A stretch of 9,680 bases of DNA, taken from NCBI GenBank assembly GCA_001824455.1, contig MHXL01000052.1, positions 15,503 to 25,182 of the forward strand. Reading direction: 5' to 3'. Positions 2,476-8,131 of the stretch are shown here, in pieces. This stretch comes from Desulfuromonadaceae bacterium GWB2_53_15 (GTDB lineage Bacteria; Desulfobacterota; Desulfuromonadia; Geobacterales; Pseudopelobacteraceae). The notes beneath the pieces are model-generated. The model had not been told where the DNA came from and did no database searches. It was given only the letters and a program-made list of their open reading frames with translations. A program made the translations under genes and the position numbers. Every line of letters starts with the position of its first letter. Within the stretch, counting starts at the first letter, position 1.

Positions 2476-3102
2476 TCAATACAGGTGGTTGATGATCTCC
2501 ACGTGATGCTCAATGCGCACCGGGGTGGGCAGGTGCGTCTTGTAAGCGACAAAGGGCACCCCCGCGCCGGCGGCGGATTGCATGTCCACTTCACTGTCCC
2601 CCACGAAGAGCGCCTCGCCCGGCTCTATCCCGAAGTGTTCAAGCACCTTGAGCAGCGGCTCGGGGTGCGGCTTGGGATGGGTTACCTTGCCGGCGGTCAT
2701 GACGCATTCGAAGTACCCGCTCAACCCAAAGTCCTCGATGATCATCTCCATTGAGATGGCCCGGTTGGTGCAGACCGCCAGGGAGAACTGCCCCTTGAGG
2801 CGATCGAGTGTTTCGATAAAGCCGGCCTCCATGCTCATGAAGGGGGCCAGATCGCGGTAGTGGATGGTCTTGGCGAAGGACATGGCATCGTCCTGGCAGG
2901 CATCGCCGGCGAAAAAATATTCCATCACGTTGTTGAAGGAGTAAGTGTGCAGCACCGTGCGCGCTTTGTGGTCCGTGCGGTCCAGCGGTGGCCGGCCAAG
3001 ATGTTCCATTACCCGGTTGTAGAAGATATAGTTGGATTCGAGCGTGTCGAGCATGACCCCGTCGCAGTCATAAATTACTACCTTGTATCGGCTTTTTTTC
3101 AT
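2476..3102 (-). CDS. HAD-superfamily hydrolase, phosphoglycolate phosphatase-like
   Basis: This is a 208-residue cytoplasmic HAD phosphatase. Motif I is DCDGVMLDT, with nucleophile D12 and acid/base D14. Motif II is the CTNR stretch (T112, N113), motif III is K144 in HPKPHPEP, and motif IV is FVGDSEVD (D169, D173). The helical cap inserted between motifs I and II and the overall length fit the Gph/PGMB-type subfamily, which acts on small phosphorylated metabolites. The exact substrate cannot be read from the sequence. Two starts are possible: ATG 3102 (used here, giving MKKSRYKVVIYDCDG) and an in-frame GTG at 3111. The GTG has GGAG 10 bases upstream. The difference is three residues. The gene follows the HNH stop by 4-13 bases and precedes the cyclase by 10, so it is the middle gene of a probable operon. 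Confidence 0.88.
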   Translation of the reverse strand: MKKSRYKVVIYDCDGVMLDTLESNYIFYNRVMEHLGRPPLDRTDHKARTVLHTYSFNNVMEYFFAGDACQDDAMSFAKTIHYRDLAPFMSMEAGFIETLDRLKGQFSLAVCTNRAISMEMIIEDFGLSGYFECVMTAGKVTHPKPHPEPLLKVLEHFGIEPGEALFVGDSEVDMQSAAGAGVPFVAYKTHLPTPVRIEHHVEIINHLY

Positions 3103-3115
3103 CAGTTCCACGTGA

Positions 3116-3418
3116 TCAAGACTCCGTTTTTCCGAGATGGTTCAGGTACTGTTCCCATTCCATGGGCAGCAGGTATTTCTTCTTGGTGTTGCACTCCTTG
3201 CAGCAGGGGACGACATTGTTGCGGGAGGCCTTGCCGCCGCGCGTGAGGGGAATGACGTGATCCATGGTCAGTTCTTCCGGAGCAAAGCTCCCTTCGCACC
3301 AATGGCAGCGCCCCAGGGCCAGCCGGTTCTGCCACCAGCGGCTGCGGCGCAATTCGCGGGATTTGTCCCGCTCGCGCTTGACGTCCTGTTCGCTGACTTC
3401 GATGATGAAATGGTCCAT
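3116..3418 (-). CDS. Small HNH endonuclease-family protein
   Basis: This 100-residue protein has a complete HNH/zinc-finger core: CHWC (C38, C41), TMDHVIP (D53, H54), GGKASRNNVVP (N67/N68) and CKECN (C73, C76, N77), followed by a lysine-rich KKKYLLP. The two CxxC pairs should hold a structural zinc, and the His/Asn set the catalytic metal. The N-terminal 35 residues are strongly charged (KRERDKSRELRRSRWW) and may bind nucleic acid. Stand-alone HNH proteins of this size are widespread and mostly of unknown role; restriction, repair and domesticated homing endonuclease are all possible. GAGG lies about 9 bases before ATG 3418. It is the first gene of a probable operon with the HAD phosphatase and cyclase, with a promoter-like and operator-like leader upstream. 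No methyltransferase or toxin partner lies beside it, so I do not call it restriction or defence. Confidence 0.88.
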   Translation of the reverse strand: MDHFIIEVSEQDVKRERDKSRELRRSRWWQNRLALGRCHWCEGSFAPEELTMDHVIPLTRGGKASRNNVVPCCKECNTKKKYLLPMEWEQYLNHLGKTES

Positions 3419-3592: not shown

Positions 3593-4567
3593 TCAGGGCC
3601 TTCTGCCGCCATATTTATGGCAGTTTGAACAGGTTCTGAAATCCTTGAACACGAAAAGCCCCTTTAAATTCCGATATAATGAGTGGCAATCGAGACATTT
3701 CTTTCCTTTTTGCTGAACCAGCAGATGATGTCTGGTTGGGTTGTAGAGCGACCAGCCTCCACTGCTCCCTCCAATGCTGATCTGGTCTGCAGCGCCGCCG
3801 TGACAACCGAGGCAATCCTCGTTGCTGCCGATATGGCCGCGATAAGACAACTCACCACCCGGCACGATCTTGCCATCGTTGTTCGTGTCAATCTGGATGT
3901 TGTGCAGCGATTGGGGTGCATGACACTGTTCGCAGGCTCGAATCTTGAGACCTGTTTCCGCCTGGGAATCGTGACACCACACACATTTACCATAATCCTG
4001 ACCCATACCGGTATCATGGTGGGCCTCCTTGTTGGCATATACCAGCTTGCTGGTGCCCCAGTCATTACCCCAAGAGTGGCAATAATCGCAGGCTCCCTTG
4101 CCATTAACTCCTGTACCGGCTGAAGGGCGAGGGGAGACCAACGATGCGTCGTAGGCCGGGATATAGTGCCCATCATCCCGGTTTTGGACCAACTCTCCAT
4201 GACAGGAGACACAGTCGCCATTTTGGGCTGCCTGTCCGAGGTGATGGACCGATGCCTGTCCGGCGATCTGACTGTGACACTGGAAGCAGTCCCGAAACGG
4301 CACAAACAGGCAACTTCCGCTGCTGCAATCCATTTTGTGGCATGTGGTACAGAAAAGACCCTTGGAATTGATCAATTGATGGTGCAGATCTACTACGTTA
4401 TCACCATGGCATCCTTTGCAATCGGATGCGCTCATATTGTTAAAGGATCTATCCCACAATCCAATATTCTGGTCGGCGGCTGGTGCCGGTACATTGGCCT
4501 GGCACAGGCAGACCCAGAAAACAACCGACACGGTCAGAATTCCGATCATCATAGTAATTACCTTCAT
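3593..4567 (-). CDS. Decahaem c-type cytochrome, exported
   Basis: This 324-residue protein has ten CxxCH haem-attachment sites: CKGCH (50), CTTCH (73), CFQCH (94), CVSCH (119), CDYCH (160), CVWCH (195), CEQCH (212), CLGCH (252), CLDCH (291) and CSNCH (313). The N terminus, MKVITMMIGILTVSVVFWVCLC then QANVPAPA, is a Sec signal peptide with likely cleavage near residue 24. The protein should therefore carry electrons in the periplasm or at the outer surface, as in metal-reducing Geobacter relatives. Two extra features are a cysteine pair, CSSGSC (81, 86), and an EF-hand-like loop, D227-N229-D231-G232, between haems 7 and 8. AAGGGG lies about 9 bases before ATG 4567. It is a single-gene unit with its own promoter and terminator. 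No porin or oxidoreductase partner is adjacent, so its redox partner is unknown. Confidence 0.95.
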   Translation of the reverse strand: MKVITMMIGILTVSVVFWVCLCQANVPAPAADQNIGLWDRSFNNMSASDCKGCHGDNVVDLHHQLINSKGLFCTTCHKMDCSSGSCLFVPFRDCFQCHSQIAGQASVHHLGQAAQNGDCVSCHGELVQNRDDGHYIPAYDASLVSPRPSAGTGVNGKGACDYCHSWGNDWGTSKLVYANKEAHHDTGMGQDYGKCVWCHDSQAETGLKIRACEQCHAPQSLHNIQIDTNNDGKIVPGGELSYRGHIGSNEDCLGCHGGAADQISIGGSSGGWSLYNPTRHHLLVQQKGKKCLDCHSLYRNLKGLFVFKDFRTCSNCHKYGGRRP

Positions 4568-4876: not shown

Positions 4877-7246
4877 CTATTGACGCAGCGTTACCACGGT
4901 AGCCCCGTCGCGCCCCTCATGCGCCTCTCCTGGCCGATACCCCTCCACCAGCGGATGCCGCGCCAAGTGTTCCCGTACCGCCTGGCGCAGCTTGCCGGAA
5001 CCGAGGCCATGGATGATCCGGACTTCTGACAGTCCGCTCAATGAAGCGTGATTGAGGAATGGTTCCAGCAGGTCCAACGCTTCTTCAACCCGCAGGCCGA
5101 TCAGCTTCAATTCCCGCTCCTCACTCTGGGCCGCTTCCACCTTCCAGGACCCTTTGAGCGGTCTTTGATTCTTTTCGCCTCCCTTTTTCAGAGGAGCTGC
5201 CAGATCACTGCAGGCGACATCCACCTCCATGCTGCCGGCCCTGACCCGTGCCTTGTCGTGCTTTTCGTCAACGCTGAGCACAACCCCGTCGTGCCCGAGA
5301 GATACAACGTGCACTGCAGTCCCCGCTTTGATCTCCTGAAGTGCCGTCAGCGGGCCGACTTGGCGAGCCAGTGGCTTGAGTTGCTCCGTCAATTCGTTCT
5401 CGCTTCGGCGCAGCTTGTCGATGATGTCGCTGCGCTTCTCGCGTTTGTACTCATCCAGCAGCTCGTTCATGCGGCGCCGGCTGATGGAGATCAATTCGCG
5501 GGCCTCGCTCCAGGCCTTTTCCCGGGTCTCTTGGCGGGCCTGTTCAATGCCGGCGATCCGGGCCGCCAATTCCTGCCGGGTGCTGCGCACCTGTTCCTGC
5601 TGTTGATCCAATCTGCGCTGCGCCTCGTTCAACTCTTCCCGCTTTCGCCGCAATTCCGCCAACAAGGTGGTAAATTCAGCACCGGCGCTGCCCAGCATCT
5701 CACGGGCAAAATTGATCACCCCTTCGGGCATGCCGTAACGCCGGGCGATATCGATGGCGTGGGAATGTCCCGGCTCGCCACTGATCAGGCGGTAGAGCGG
5801 GGTATAGGTTGCGGCGTCATACTCCATGCCGGCGTTGATCATGCCCGCTGTGCGATGGACAAAACCGATTATCTCAGACAGGTGGGTTGTAGCGATCACG
5901 GTGGCGCCCCGTTCCAGCAGATCACGCAGCACACCGCAGGCGATGGCGGCCCCCTGTTGCGGTTCGGTGCCGGCCCCCAGTTCATCCAGCAGCACCAGTG
6001 TGCGCTGTCCGGCCTGATCGAGGATGGTGGCGATGCGGCCGACATGGGCCGAGAAGGTGGAAAGGCTCTGCTCAATGGATTGCTCGTCGCCGATATCCAC
6101 CAGCAGGGTATCCAGCAGCGGGAAGCTGGAACGTGCCCCGTTGGCCGGCACCGGTATGGCGCACAAGGCCATCAGGGTCAGCACCCCGGCCGTCTTCAGG
6201 GCGATGGTTTTGCCGCCGGCGTTGGGGCCGGTAATAACCATGACGCGCCCCTCATGGCCCATCTCAAGGTCCAGCGGTTCAACGCGGGGGATGGCGCCCT
6301 GGCGCTGCAGCATCAGCAGCAGCGGGTGGCGTGCCTGGACGAGCCGCAGTTCTCCCTCCTCGTTAATCTGCGCTGCCTCCAGGTTGTAGCGCTCGGCAAA
6401 GGCAGCCATGCTGTTCAGGGCATCCAGGGTCACCAGTGTGGAGAAACAGCCTTCCAGGGCATCGCTATCCTCGCGGATCCAGGCCGAGAGCTGCCGCAGG
6501 ATGCGGATTTCTTCAGCCTTTTCCTCGGCGCTCAGGTTCTCCAGTTCGTTGACAAACGGGATGATCTCCAGCGGTTCCATAAAGGCGGTCTCGCCCGAGG
6601 CGGAGACATCGTGCACCACACCCTTCACCATCCCCTTGGAATCCATTCGCACCGGTATCACCCAGCGCCCAGAGCGCTGCGTTATGAAGTCGTCCTGCAG
6701 GAAGATCTCGATGTTGCTGTCACGGATGATCTCTTCGATCTTCTTGCGGATGCGGGAAGCCAGTGTGCGCTTGGCGCGGCGGATATCTCTGAGCTGCGGT
6801 GAGGCGCTGTCCATGATGCTGGCGTCGTGGTCAATAGAGGCCGCCAACGGCTCCAGAATATCGGGGAAGGCCTTCAGCGGCGGCTCTAACGTTGCCAGCA
6901 GGGGGATGTCGCTGCGCGCTGCCAGCTGGCGGGCCAGATCGCGCAAGATTTGCAGCACCGGGATAAAAACCAGCAGCTCCTGAGGCGTCAGGGTACCCCC
7001 GCTGGGTCTGACCGTCTCCAACAGTGGCCGGATATCCTCGAAGGAAGCCAGCCGCAGGGCAATCCCAAGGTTGAGCAGGTTGCGGATTTCCTGTGTACGC
7101 CCGGAGATGAGCCGTATCAATCCGCTGTCGCCCAGGGGTGTTGTTGCCATTAGCTGTCGGCAGGTGACGTCACTATGGGCCTGGCTGGCGATCTCGGCCA
7201 GGATCTTGTCGAACTCAAGCCGTTGCAGGGTGTCGCGAGTAATCAT
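4877..7246 (-). CDS. mutS2: MutS2 ATPase with C-terminal KOW-like and Smr domains
   Basis: This full-length 789-residue MutS2 lacks the mismatch-recognition domain of MutS, as the family does. The core/lever region covers about 1-290. The ABC-type ATPase has Walker A GPNAGGKT (340-347), DIGDEQSIEQSLSTFSAH (384-401), Walker B LVLLDELGAGTEP (417-429) and ATTHLSE (452-458). A long coiled coil follows (about 525-630), then a KOW-like beta region (about 640-682) and the Smr domain (about 712-789) with HGLGSG (746-751). MutS2 proteins have been linked to suppression of recombination and, in Bacillus subtilis, to splitting of collided ribosomes. The usual LDLR motif of the Smr nuclease reads LKLI here (713-716), which may change or remove nuclease activity. 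AGGA lies 7 bases before ATG 7246, and the ATG overlaps the upstream TGA as ATGA, so translation is probably coupled to the GGQ gene. Confidence 0.96.
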   Translation of the reverse strand: MITRDTLQRLEFDKILAEIASQAHSDVTCRQLMATTPLGDSGLIRLISGRTQEIRNLLNLGIALRLASFEDIRPLLETVRPSGGTLTPQELLVFIPVLQILRDLARQLAARSDIPLLATLEPPLKAFPDILEPLAASIDHDASIMDSASPQLRDIRRAKRTLASRIRKKIEEIIRDSNIEIFLQDDFITQRSGRWVIPVRMDSKGMVKGVVHDVSASGETAFMEPLEIIPFVNELENLSAEEKAEEIRILRQLSAWIREDSDALEGCFSTLVTLDALNSMAAFAERYNLEAAQINEEGELRLVQARHPLLLMLQRQGAIPRVEPLDLEMGHEGRVMVITGPNAGGKTIALKTAGVLTLMALCAIPVPANGARSSFPLLDTLLVDIGDEQSIEQSLSTFSAHVGRIATILDQAGQRTLVLLDELGAGTEPQQGAAIACGVLRDLLERGATVIATTHLSEIIGFVHRTAGMINAGMEYDAATYTPLYRLISGEPGHSHAIDIARRYGMPEGVINFAREMLGSAGAEFTTLLAELRRKREELNEAQRRLDQQQEQVRSTRQELAARIAGIEQARQETREKAWSEARELISISRRRMNELLDEYKREKRSDIIDKLRRSENELTEQLKPLARQVGPLTALQEIKAGTAVHVVSLGHDGVVLSVDEKHDKARVRAGSMEVDVACSDLAAPLKKGGEKNQRPLKGSWKVEAAQSEERELKLIGLRVEEALDLLEPFLNHASLSGLSEVRIIHGLGSGKLRQAVREHLARHPLVEGYRPGEAHEGRDGATVVTLRQ

Positions 7247-7599
7247 AGATTCTTCCTGGTGGAGGTTCGTCTGCGGCGGCGATCCTTCTGTTTGCGCAGG
7301 CGTTCAATTCGTTTTGTCTCCGGTGTCTGCTTGCCGCTGAGCGCCTCGATCCGCTCCAGTAGTTCCCGCCGCGCCAGAAAGCGGTTTATCGACTGGCTGC
7401 GCTCGCGCGAAGCGCTGACGGTGATGCCGCTGGGGATGTGGCGCAGTTGGACGCAGGTGGAGGTCTTGTTGACATGCTGGCCGCCGCAGCCCGATGAGCG
7501 CACAAAGGTCTCTTGCAGATCCTCCTCCCGCACCCCCAGTTCGGCCATCTTCAACTGCAGCCAGCGGTTTTTTTCCTCGCTTACGGCAAACTCAGGCAT
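7243..7599 (-). CDS. Short GGQ release-factor-like peptidyl-tRNA hydrolase (ArfB/MTRFR type)
   Basis: This 118-residue protein contains only the catalytic domain of class I release factors. SSGCGGQHVNKTSTCV carries the GGQ at 39-41. It is followed by QLRHIPSGITV and ERSQSINRFLARRELL, then a basic tail (about 96-118, KRIERLRKQKDRRRRRTSTRK). No codon-recognition domain is present. The HIPSGI and RSxxxNRxxAR pattern is closer to human mitochondrial C12orf65/MTRFR than to E. coli ArfB. The expected reaction is hydrolysis of peptidyl-tRNA in a stalled ribosome or a free large subunit. I chose ATG 7599 because AGGA lies 7 bases upstream and the start fits the family. The longer frame to 7716 lies inside the Nudix gene and adds unrelated residues. 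It overlaps the Nudix stop by 8 bases and the mutS2 start by 4. Confidence 0.9.
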   Translation of the reverse strand: MPEFAVSEEKNRWLQLKMAELGVREEDLQETFVRSSGCGGQHVNKTSTCVQLRHIPSGITVSASRERSQSINRFLARRELLERIEALSGKQTPETKRIERLRKQKDRRRRRTSTRKNL

Positions 7600-8131
7600 G
7601 GCTCTTTCCTGGCCGTTGCAGAAGATCCCAGCGCAGCAGTGCCGCCAGGGTCTTGGCATCGCTGATCCGGCCGTCGGCAGCCATTTCCATGGCCTCGTCC
7701 AGTGGCAGGCGCACAACCTCTATTTCTTCGTATGCTTCCGGTTGAGCTGTGCCCTGGGAGATGCCGGCGGCGGCAAACAGATGGATGATCTCGTCGAAGA
7801 CGCCCGGGGAGGAGTAAATGGTTCCCAGCGGAATAATCTCAGTGGCTGTCAGGCCGGTTTCTTCCTGCAACTCGCGGCAAGCGCAGCTGAGTGGAGGTTC
7901 CTCGGGACTGAGCCTGCCGGCAGGGATTTCCAGCAGAAAAGCACCCACCGCAGGCCGGAGTTGGCGGATCAGGGCGATGGTTCCATCGCCGTACACCGGC
8001 AGCACGCCGGCGCCGCCTGGATGGCGAATGATCTGGAAGGTGTGGCGTCCTTGATCGCCAATCTCGACCTCCATCTGTTCGATGTCGATTACGAGACCGT
8101 TGAATATAATCTGGCGGTTGCTGGCATTCAT
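7592..8131 (-). CDS. Nudix hydrolase, ADP-ribose pyrophosphatase-like
   Basis: This 179-residue protein has a perfect Nudix box (G72 to L94; GX5EX7REUXEEXGU, seen as REL then QEETGL). Upstream segments typical of ADP-ribose pyrophosphatases are IIRHPGGAGVLPV and LIRQLRP then LEIPAGRLSPEE. After the box, SSPGVFDEIIHLF corresponds to the substrate loop of that group. The likely reaction is cleavage of ADP-ribose or a related nucleoside diphosphate sugar to AMP and a sugar phosphate in the cytoplasm. ATG 8131 is used. A longer frame begins with TTG at 8173 but lacks a ribosome binding site. AGG sits 10 bases before 8131, so initiation is not strong. It is the first gene of the Nudix-GGQ-mutS2 operon, and a sigma-70-like promoter lies about 75 bases upstream. 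A functional link to ribosome rescue is not obvious. Confidence 0.93.
   Translation of the reverse strand: MNASNRQIIFNGLVIDIEQMEVEIGDQGRHTFQIIRHPGGAGVLPVYGDGTIALIRQLRPAVGAFLLEIPAGRLSPEEPPLSCACRELQEETGLTATEIIPLGTIYSSPGVFDEIIHLFAAAGISQGTAQPEAYEEIEVVRLPLDEAMEMAADGRISDAKTLAALLRWDLLQRPGKSHA

Follow-up and report, generated by a model that had tools for sequence, protein, structure and literature searches.

The stretch of DNA analysed here (the window: 9,680 nucleotides of contig MHXL01000052.1 from Desulfuromonadaceae bacterium GWB2_53_15, whose assembly is 52% complete) carries on its minus strand three overlapping genes that encode a Nudix hydrolase, a short GGQ release factor and MutS2. An earlier reading of the sequence alone had proposed that the GGQ protein and MutS2 act as a two-step ribosome rescue module, and the gene order and overlaps that it described match the sequence exactly. 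We found that the GGQ protein resembles the human mitochondrial factor MTRFR (C12orf65, also called mtRF-R), that its gene adjoins mutS2 across much of the order to which the window genome belongs, and that no genome in our samples has both this factor and RqcH (scored throughout as a match to Pfam NFACT_N above its cut-off). The features at the locus are as follows.

7592..8131, minus strand: Nudix hydrolase gene, 179 residues (open reading frame, Pfam NUDIX).
7592..7599, minus strand: 8-base overlap between the end of the nudix gene and the start of the GGQ gene (sequence reading).
7243..7599, minus strand: gene for an MTRFR-like GGQ release factor of 118 residues without a codon-recognition domain (open reading frame, RF-1 domain, match to 7a5h_C, structure model).
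7477-7485, minus strand: GGQ codons of the 118-residue gene (sequence reading).
7243..7246, minus strand: ATGA overlap of the GGQ gene stop and the mutS2 start (sequence reading).
4877..7246, minus strand: mutS2, 789 residues (Pfam, TIGR01069, match to 7qv3).
5693..6241, minus strand: MutS2 ATPase domain (MutS_V) with intact Walker A (GPNAGGKT) and Walker B (LVLLDELGAGT) motifs (Pfam, alignment).
5201..5323, minus strand: MutS2 SH3/KOW-like domain, MSSS (Pfam).
4883..5110, minus strand: MutS2 Smr domain, with KLI in place of DLR and HGxG kept (Pfam, match to 7qv3, alignment).

The GGQ protein consists of a single RF-1 domain (84.6 bits, Pfam) and lacks a codon-recognition domain. Judged by its sequence, it is closest among solved structures to human MTRFR/C12orf65 and not to ArfB. 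The best match in the PDB is 7a5h_C, the human protein from a split mitoribosome (E 3e-18), with hardly a gap across residues 19-113; the alignment to E. coli ArfB is confined to residues 22-54. The NCBIfam scores all fall under their cut-offs: 68 against 166.65 for PrfH (TIGR03072), 68 against 370 for RF2, 64 against 400 for RF1 and 51 against 100 for ArfB (NF006718). In a structure model (predicted local distance difference test score, pLDDT, 87), the strands at 45-54 and 60-63 follow each other without an intervening helix, and the absence of such an insert from between the final two strands of the core is a criterion for the MTRFR/C12orf65 type (PMC6514570). In a tree that held no helix-insert ArfB/ICT1 sequence, the family groups with C12orf65, itself a long branch, and not with ArfB-type or RF1/RF2 sequences (split 100/99). 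The likeness to MTRFR that had been claimed is thus borne out by the sequence match and the tree, and the modelled fold is compatible with it. Separately, a 645-residue protein from a metagenome-assembled genome (P0123) carries AAA/helicase domains as well as an RF-1 domain, possibly through an assembly artefact.

The window MutS2 scores 770 bits with TIGR01069 (cut-off 400), and has the MutS_V, MSSS and Smr domains (NCBIfam, Pfam). Its match to the B. subtilis protein (7qv3) spans residues 6-787 (E 1.8e-116). Walker A and Walker B, and the histidine and GxG of the Smr domain, are intact in the alignment. B. subtilis MutS2 binds collided ribosomes and splits disomes using ATP, and the 50S-peptidyl-tRNA that it leaves goes to RqcH (PMC10897456); the window protein may split ribosomes too. 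The Smr DLR motif is absent from all of the aligned MutS2 rows (L173-L192 and L208-L212) bar those of B. subtilis and one genome of family f28 (G099), in genomes with RqcH and without it.

Gene linkage was followed in a sample of 77 genomes and 22 genera from the order of the window genome, in a class sample (117 genomes) and in a phylum sample (148 genomes). The order is probably Geobacterales, judging by the names that close proteins bear (Pelotalea, Oryzomonas, Geobacteraceae). GGQ matches extended to 4.7e-34 in the order and were accepted at 2.5e-23 or better in the phylum and at 1e-18 in the class; the phylum rows beyond 2.5e-23, as weak as 1e-14, come from a short paralogue or from frames as long as those of RF1/RF2. 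Within the order, 75/77 genomes have the GGQ factor and 77/77 have MutS2, and the two genes are adjacent on the same strand in 43/77 genomes, 17/22 genera and four families. By genus, 17 have them adjacent, four have them apart and one lacks the GGQ factor; no genus shows both linkage states. The overlap is exactly four bases in 13/20 adjacent pairs (the window and 19 fetched loci, by our own gene calls). The flanking genes differ between lineages, both upstream (nudix, an EAL-HDOD gene and others) and downstream, while the pair persists. Since the genes adjoin in so many genomes and genera while their other neighbours change, the pairing exceeds chance. At the fetched loci where the genes are apart, polA lies beside the GGQ gene in genus g2 and rho lies nearby in g13 and g16.

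The phylum sample has the GGQ factor in 33 genomes and MutS2 in 117. Adjacency outside the order occurs in family f19, beyond the class (G090, G126 and G155), and in one f11 genome (G149) a single gene for a major facilitator superfamily transporter separates mutS2 from the GGQ gene. A scan of named genomes covered at least 80 loci with about 11 family members; among the matches listed, mutS2 adjoins the GGQ gene only in a Geobacter metagenome-assembled genome (L099). The sequence-only reading had counted adjacency confined to very close relatives as a refutation, and the outcome is mixed: linkage runs through the order and reaches f19, but is broken in four order genera and unseen in the other family members examined. 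At three f31 loci (L070, L073 and L078), in genomes without MutS2, a member of the GGQ family follows a conserved gene cluster, which from its sequence seems to encode subunits of an indolepyruvate:ferredoxin oxidoreductase together with an ACT-domain protein; genes related to this cluster lie nearby at an f54 locus (L069).

RqcH was found in 0/77 order genomes, and 10/14 control genomes, B. subtilis included, pass the same cut-off. The class sample has the GGQ factor in 60 genomes, RqcH in 46 and both in none: all 46 are among the 59 genomes from outside the order, and the GGQ factor is in 57/58 order genomes and 3/59 of the others. The phylum sample gives 33, 26 and none, and the three samples merged (278 distinct genomes) give 106, 71 and none. 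Fisher p values are 0.0012 for the phylum sample, 0.0024 without the order's five genomes and 0.009 for the non-order class genomes, but these ignore relatedness and, as the genomes of a clade are not independent, overstate the evidence. At the family level, the sets with the GGQ factor and with RqcH (21 and 25 among 86 families) share one family where 6.1 are expected (Fisher p 0.003, with the same caveat), and that family, f74, has the two in different genera. It is the clearest single case: seven f74 genomes have RqcH and no GGQ factor; genus g138 (G227 and G263) has the GGQ factor, no RqcH and a MutS2 of the type usual in the class. A genome of family f75 (G266) likewise has the GGQ factor and no RqcH above cut-off. 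Contamination is an unlikely source of the f74 GGQ genes, because those of G227 and G263 have a common neighbour gene and that of G263 is on one contig with mutS2. The GGQ gene did not occupy the rqcH position in the six rqcH loci compared. In two f41 genomes (G145 and G170), where the GGQ factor is absent, NFACT_N matches below cut-off lie in long frames (578 and 629 residues) and are possibly divergent RqcH.

We lean slightly towards the view that the MTRFR-like protein and MutS2 together carry out, in bacteria, a version of the ribosome quality control known from mitochondria. MutS2 would recognise collided ribosomes and split the stalled one with ATP, so that the 50S subunit retains its peptidyl-tRNA. 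The GGQ protein, anchored by the short basic helix at its C-terminus, would next reach into the peptidyl-transferase centre thus exposed and cleave the ester directly, so that both chain and tRNA come free with no alanine tail of the RqcH type. Without the long tail by which ArfB senses the empty mRNA channel of the 30S, the protein would rely on splitting having taken place, and 70S ribosomes at mRNA ends would fall to the ArfB-type factor that these genomes encode as well. What the sequences show is the overlap of the genes and its conservation, the difference in tails, and the absence of RqcH and its exclusion by the GGQ factor in the samples; what the protein does, its action on the 50S and the sequence of events we infer by joining the literature on B. 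subtilis MutS2 to that on mtRF-R. The two-step idea thus survives in a sharper form, as a MutS2-linked MTRFR-type factor never found with RqcH in our samples: it gains from the likeness to MTRFR, from linkage in four order families and f19 and from the RqcH exclusion. Of the earlier suggestion that the module replaces or complements tmRNA, ArfB or RqcH, the part on RqcH stands, since replacement of RqcH by the GGQ factor fits the data best; replacement of ArfB is unlikely, because a second, ArfB-type GGQ factor is present in 56/58 order genomes.

More tentatively, and with somewhat more reason to doubt it than to accept it, we propose a tagless quality control in which MutS2 splits collided ribosomes and the chain is ejected from the 50S by a dedicated hydrolase of the MTRFR type, encoded in one operon with mutS2 and replacing RqcH in lineages that have gained it. 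Such a system would supply a bacterial relative of the mitochondrial pathway and would also offer a candidate for the type of splitter at work upstream of MTRFR. The mitochondrial factor mtRF-R showed no release activity on 70S or 55S ribosomes and binds and acts on the split mitochondrial large subunit with MTRES1; the splitter upstream of it is described as unclear (PMC8786322). If the proposal is true, an MTRFR relative and a splitter homologue encoded together in bacteria without detectable RqcH would link the two systems and open both questions to bacterial experiments. It would hint, too, at the step after MutS2 in genomes that lack RqcH: in one survey, 97% of genomes with RqcH have MutS2 and 87% of those without RqcH lack MutS2 (PMC11633108), figures that leave the genomes with MutS2 alone to be explained.

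The mitochondrial system (mtRF-R with MTRES1, 7a5h) shares with that of the window a GGQ domain without codon recognition, a short basic helix at the C-terminus, last core strands that no helix insert separates, and a coexisting ArfB/ICT1-type factor; the window system differs in being bacterial and in the linkage of its GGQ gene to the MutS2 gene. Ribosome quality control in B. subtilis (MutS2/RqcU, RqcH, RqcP and Pth) has in common with it a MutS2 with ATPase, KOW-like and Smr domains. B. subtilis MutS2 acts upstream of 50S-peptidyl-tRNA processing (PMC10897456; PMC11317155), and Pth can release tagged chains (PMC11317155). The order, in contrast, lacks RqcH above cut-off and has a mutS2-linked GGQ hydrolase instead of alanine tailing and Pth. 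ArfB/YaeJ/ICT1 proteins are likewise codon-independent GGQ hydrolases of similar size, but the window protein has no distal tail, no helix insert in its model and a score with the ArfB model well under cut-off. The PrfH-RtcB pair is also a GGQ factor linked by gene neighbourhood to a second RNA-related enzyme; PrfH, however, retains a form of the codon-recognition domain, and its partner is an RNA ligase (PMC6514570). Among the matches listed in the open-licence PMC literature (titles and abstract starts), no paper joins MutS2 with an MTRFR-like factor. MutS2 does not occur in a survey of release-factor neighbourhoods (PMC6514570), nor do the words 'operon' or 'neighborhood' in PMC10897456.

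Several observations weigh against this interpretation, to be set beside the relatedness that inflates the Fisher values. The disome-binding residues of B. subtilis MutS2, DLR and QxxILK, are not conserved in the window protein; DLR is also absent from 11/12 aligned MutS2 of relatives with RqcH. An MTRES1/RqcP-like S4 partner was not identified in the nine order genomes searched for small S4 open reading frames: such frames (70-103 residues) occur in 9/9, seven above cut-off, and the eight that were read resemble the YbcJ/YaaA type, while one gave no translation at the position tried. Fusions of the GGQ protein with MutS2 were looked for and none was found. The two genes are apart in 32 order genomes, which make up four genera, and 2/77 order genomes lack the GGQ factor. 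The GGQ family occurs without a nearby mutS2 in other phyla; four genomes with the factor have no MutS2 match (G102, G137, G187 and G209); one genome (G082) has a MutS2 of the linked type and no GGQ match; and one of the 33 phylum genomes counted (G131) has two stops within its GGQ match. Neither RqcH nor the GGQ factor is present in 64/117 phylum genomes with MutS2, and 11/117 genomes of the class sample have MutS2 with neither. Given these genomes, those with the GGQ factor and no MutS2, and the lost linkage, the GGQ factor is no universal substitute. Finally, NFACT_N matches below cut-off, short or weak, occur in 4/77 order genomes and, in frames of 262-389 residues, in 8/33 phylum genomes with the GGQ factor; passing frames in the phylum sample are mostly about 450-600 residues long, and we read the short matches in GGQ-bearing genomes as other proteins.

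An alternative is that the GGQ protein is an additional ArfB-like factor acting on intact 70S ribosomes at mRNA ends, and that its adjacency to mutS2 marks a translation-stress regulon with no physical or sequential coupling. The two types have the same RF-1 fold, a basic C-terminal stretch is present in the GGQ family members examined, and the wider family probably includes ArfB-like members. Using a pattern for the distal ArfB-like tail that was loosened once, its first version having been too strict, we found this tail in 4/4 GGQ members from genomes without MutS2 (two families), 7/15 from the remaining phylum, 6/8 from elsewhere and 10/10 fetched ArfB-type paralogues. The genomes without MutS2 and the four order genera that have lost linkage also suit this alternative. 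Against it, the tail is found in 0/38 members of the linked-pair clade (30 order rows, f74/f75, f19, f52 and f9). The ArfB tail senses the empty mRNA channel on the 30S (PMC8786322), and if it does so here, a 50S substrate accords with the loss of the tail in genomes that encode a splitter. Moreover, the role is already filled: in ten order genomes we read the sequence of a second GGQ protein, also short, whose tail resembles that of ArfB, and homologues of the ArfB type (counted in the class sample at E 1e-20 or better) are in 56/58 order genomes and 23/59 others, although none was found in the incomplete assembly of the window genome. They are also in 18/46 class genomes with RqcH and 3/3 non-order genomes with the GGQ factor, and so do not track the split between RqcH and the GGQ factor. 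Because an ArfB-type factor can coexist with RqcH, the exclusion of RqcH would have no obvious reason if the window protein were one more of them, and we consider this alternative unlikely. The second short protein has GGQHRNTTDSAVR like RF2, yet an ArfB-like tail (L196-L205). The three of these proteins tested score 84.7, 66.3 and 72.2 with the ArfB model, under its cut-off of 100, so surveys using that cut-off may miss them.

The linkage might instead be inherited gene order without function, arising from one ancestral juxtaposition that moved once between lineages, with the RqcH pattern a product of lineage history. Adjacency confined to one order and f19 could indeed have a single origin, and the many genomes with MutS2 and neither factor are in keeping with this. 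The trees bear on the question. For MutS2 (53 rows; L099, L206 and L207, partial or repeated, were omitted), the order and f19 form a clade (99/91) nested in one with f11 and f52 (100/100), and the MutS2 of 12 class-mates lie apart from it (100/100). Transfer or replacement of MutS2 is the simplest reading, because f19, f11 and f52 are outside the class and yet class-mates carry another MutS2. The GGQ tree has 65 rows; loci L004-L032, from the same order search and partly the same genomes, were omitted from it and from the tail counts, leaving the order with 30/75 rows in the two together. The nearest outside groups of the order in this tree are f19 (98/74), f52 (99/79) and f9 (100/92), the first two supports falling just under the starred level, and the GGQ gene follows the path of MutS2 for f19 and f52. 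The two trees conflict for f11, whose GGQ protein is among distant members and whose MutS2 is in the linked clade, and for f9, whose GGQ protein is near those of the order and whose MutS2 is elsewhere; this too speaks against the scheme proposed here and slightly lowers our confidence in it. The GGQ proteins of three class-mates from outside the order (G227, G263 and G266) fall in a starred branch with 20 order rows (97/85), and these genomes therefore probably received the gene from the order. In f74 genus g138 this probable acquisition coincides with the absence of RqcH, which speaks against inherited order, as do the exclusion of RqcH among phylum genomes from outside the order, the four-base overlaps and the persistence of the pair in 17 genera while other neighbours turned over. 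Inherited order is accordingly a distinctly improbable explanation, more so than an extra ArfB-like factor.

The Nudix gene had been suspected to be a bystander, and this is supported: among the loci examined it adjoins the GGQ gene only in order family f1. The first descriptions of MutS2 made it a DNA-repair paralogue, and Nudix genes can be sanitation enzymes, but a partnership of the two in DNA recombination or the damage response, with the GGQ gene riding along, is very hard to credit when the conserved pair is GGQ-mutS2, Nudix accompanies it in f1 only, and the best NCBIfam matches of the Nudix protein are of NudE/ADP-ribose types (under cut-off) and not MutT.

Other genes recur around the pair in f1. 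Directly before the GGQ gene in 7/9 f1 loci with an adjacent pair, the window included, lies an EAL-HDOD gene of about 410 residues (L045, L046 and L048-L052; for example L045:8013-9239), which overlaps nudix or the GGQ gene in several. Genes for an HNH nuclease and a HAD hydrolase (window 2476-3418) form a close pair after mutS2 in 8/9 such loci and sometimes overlap by 4 bases. Also downstream in the window are genes for a CHASE2 adenylate/guanylate cyclase and a multihaem cytochrome c (492-2594 and 3593-4567).

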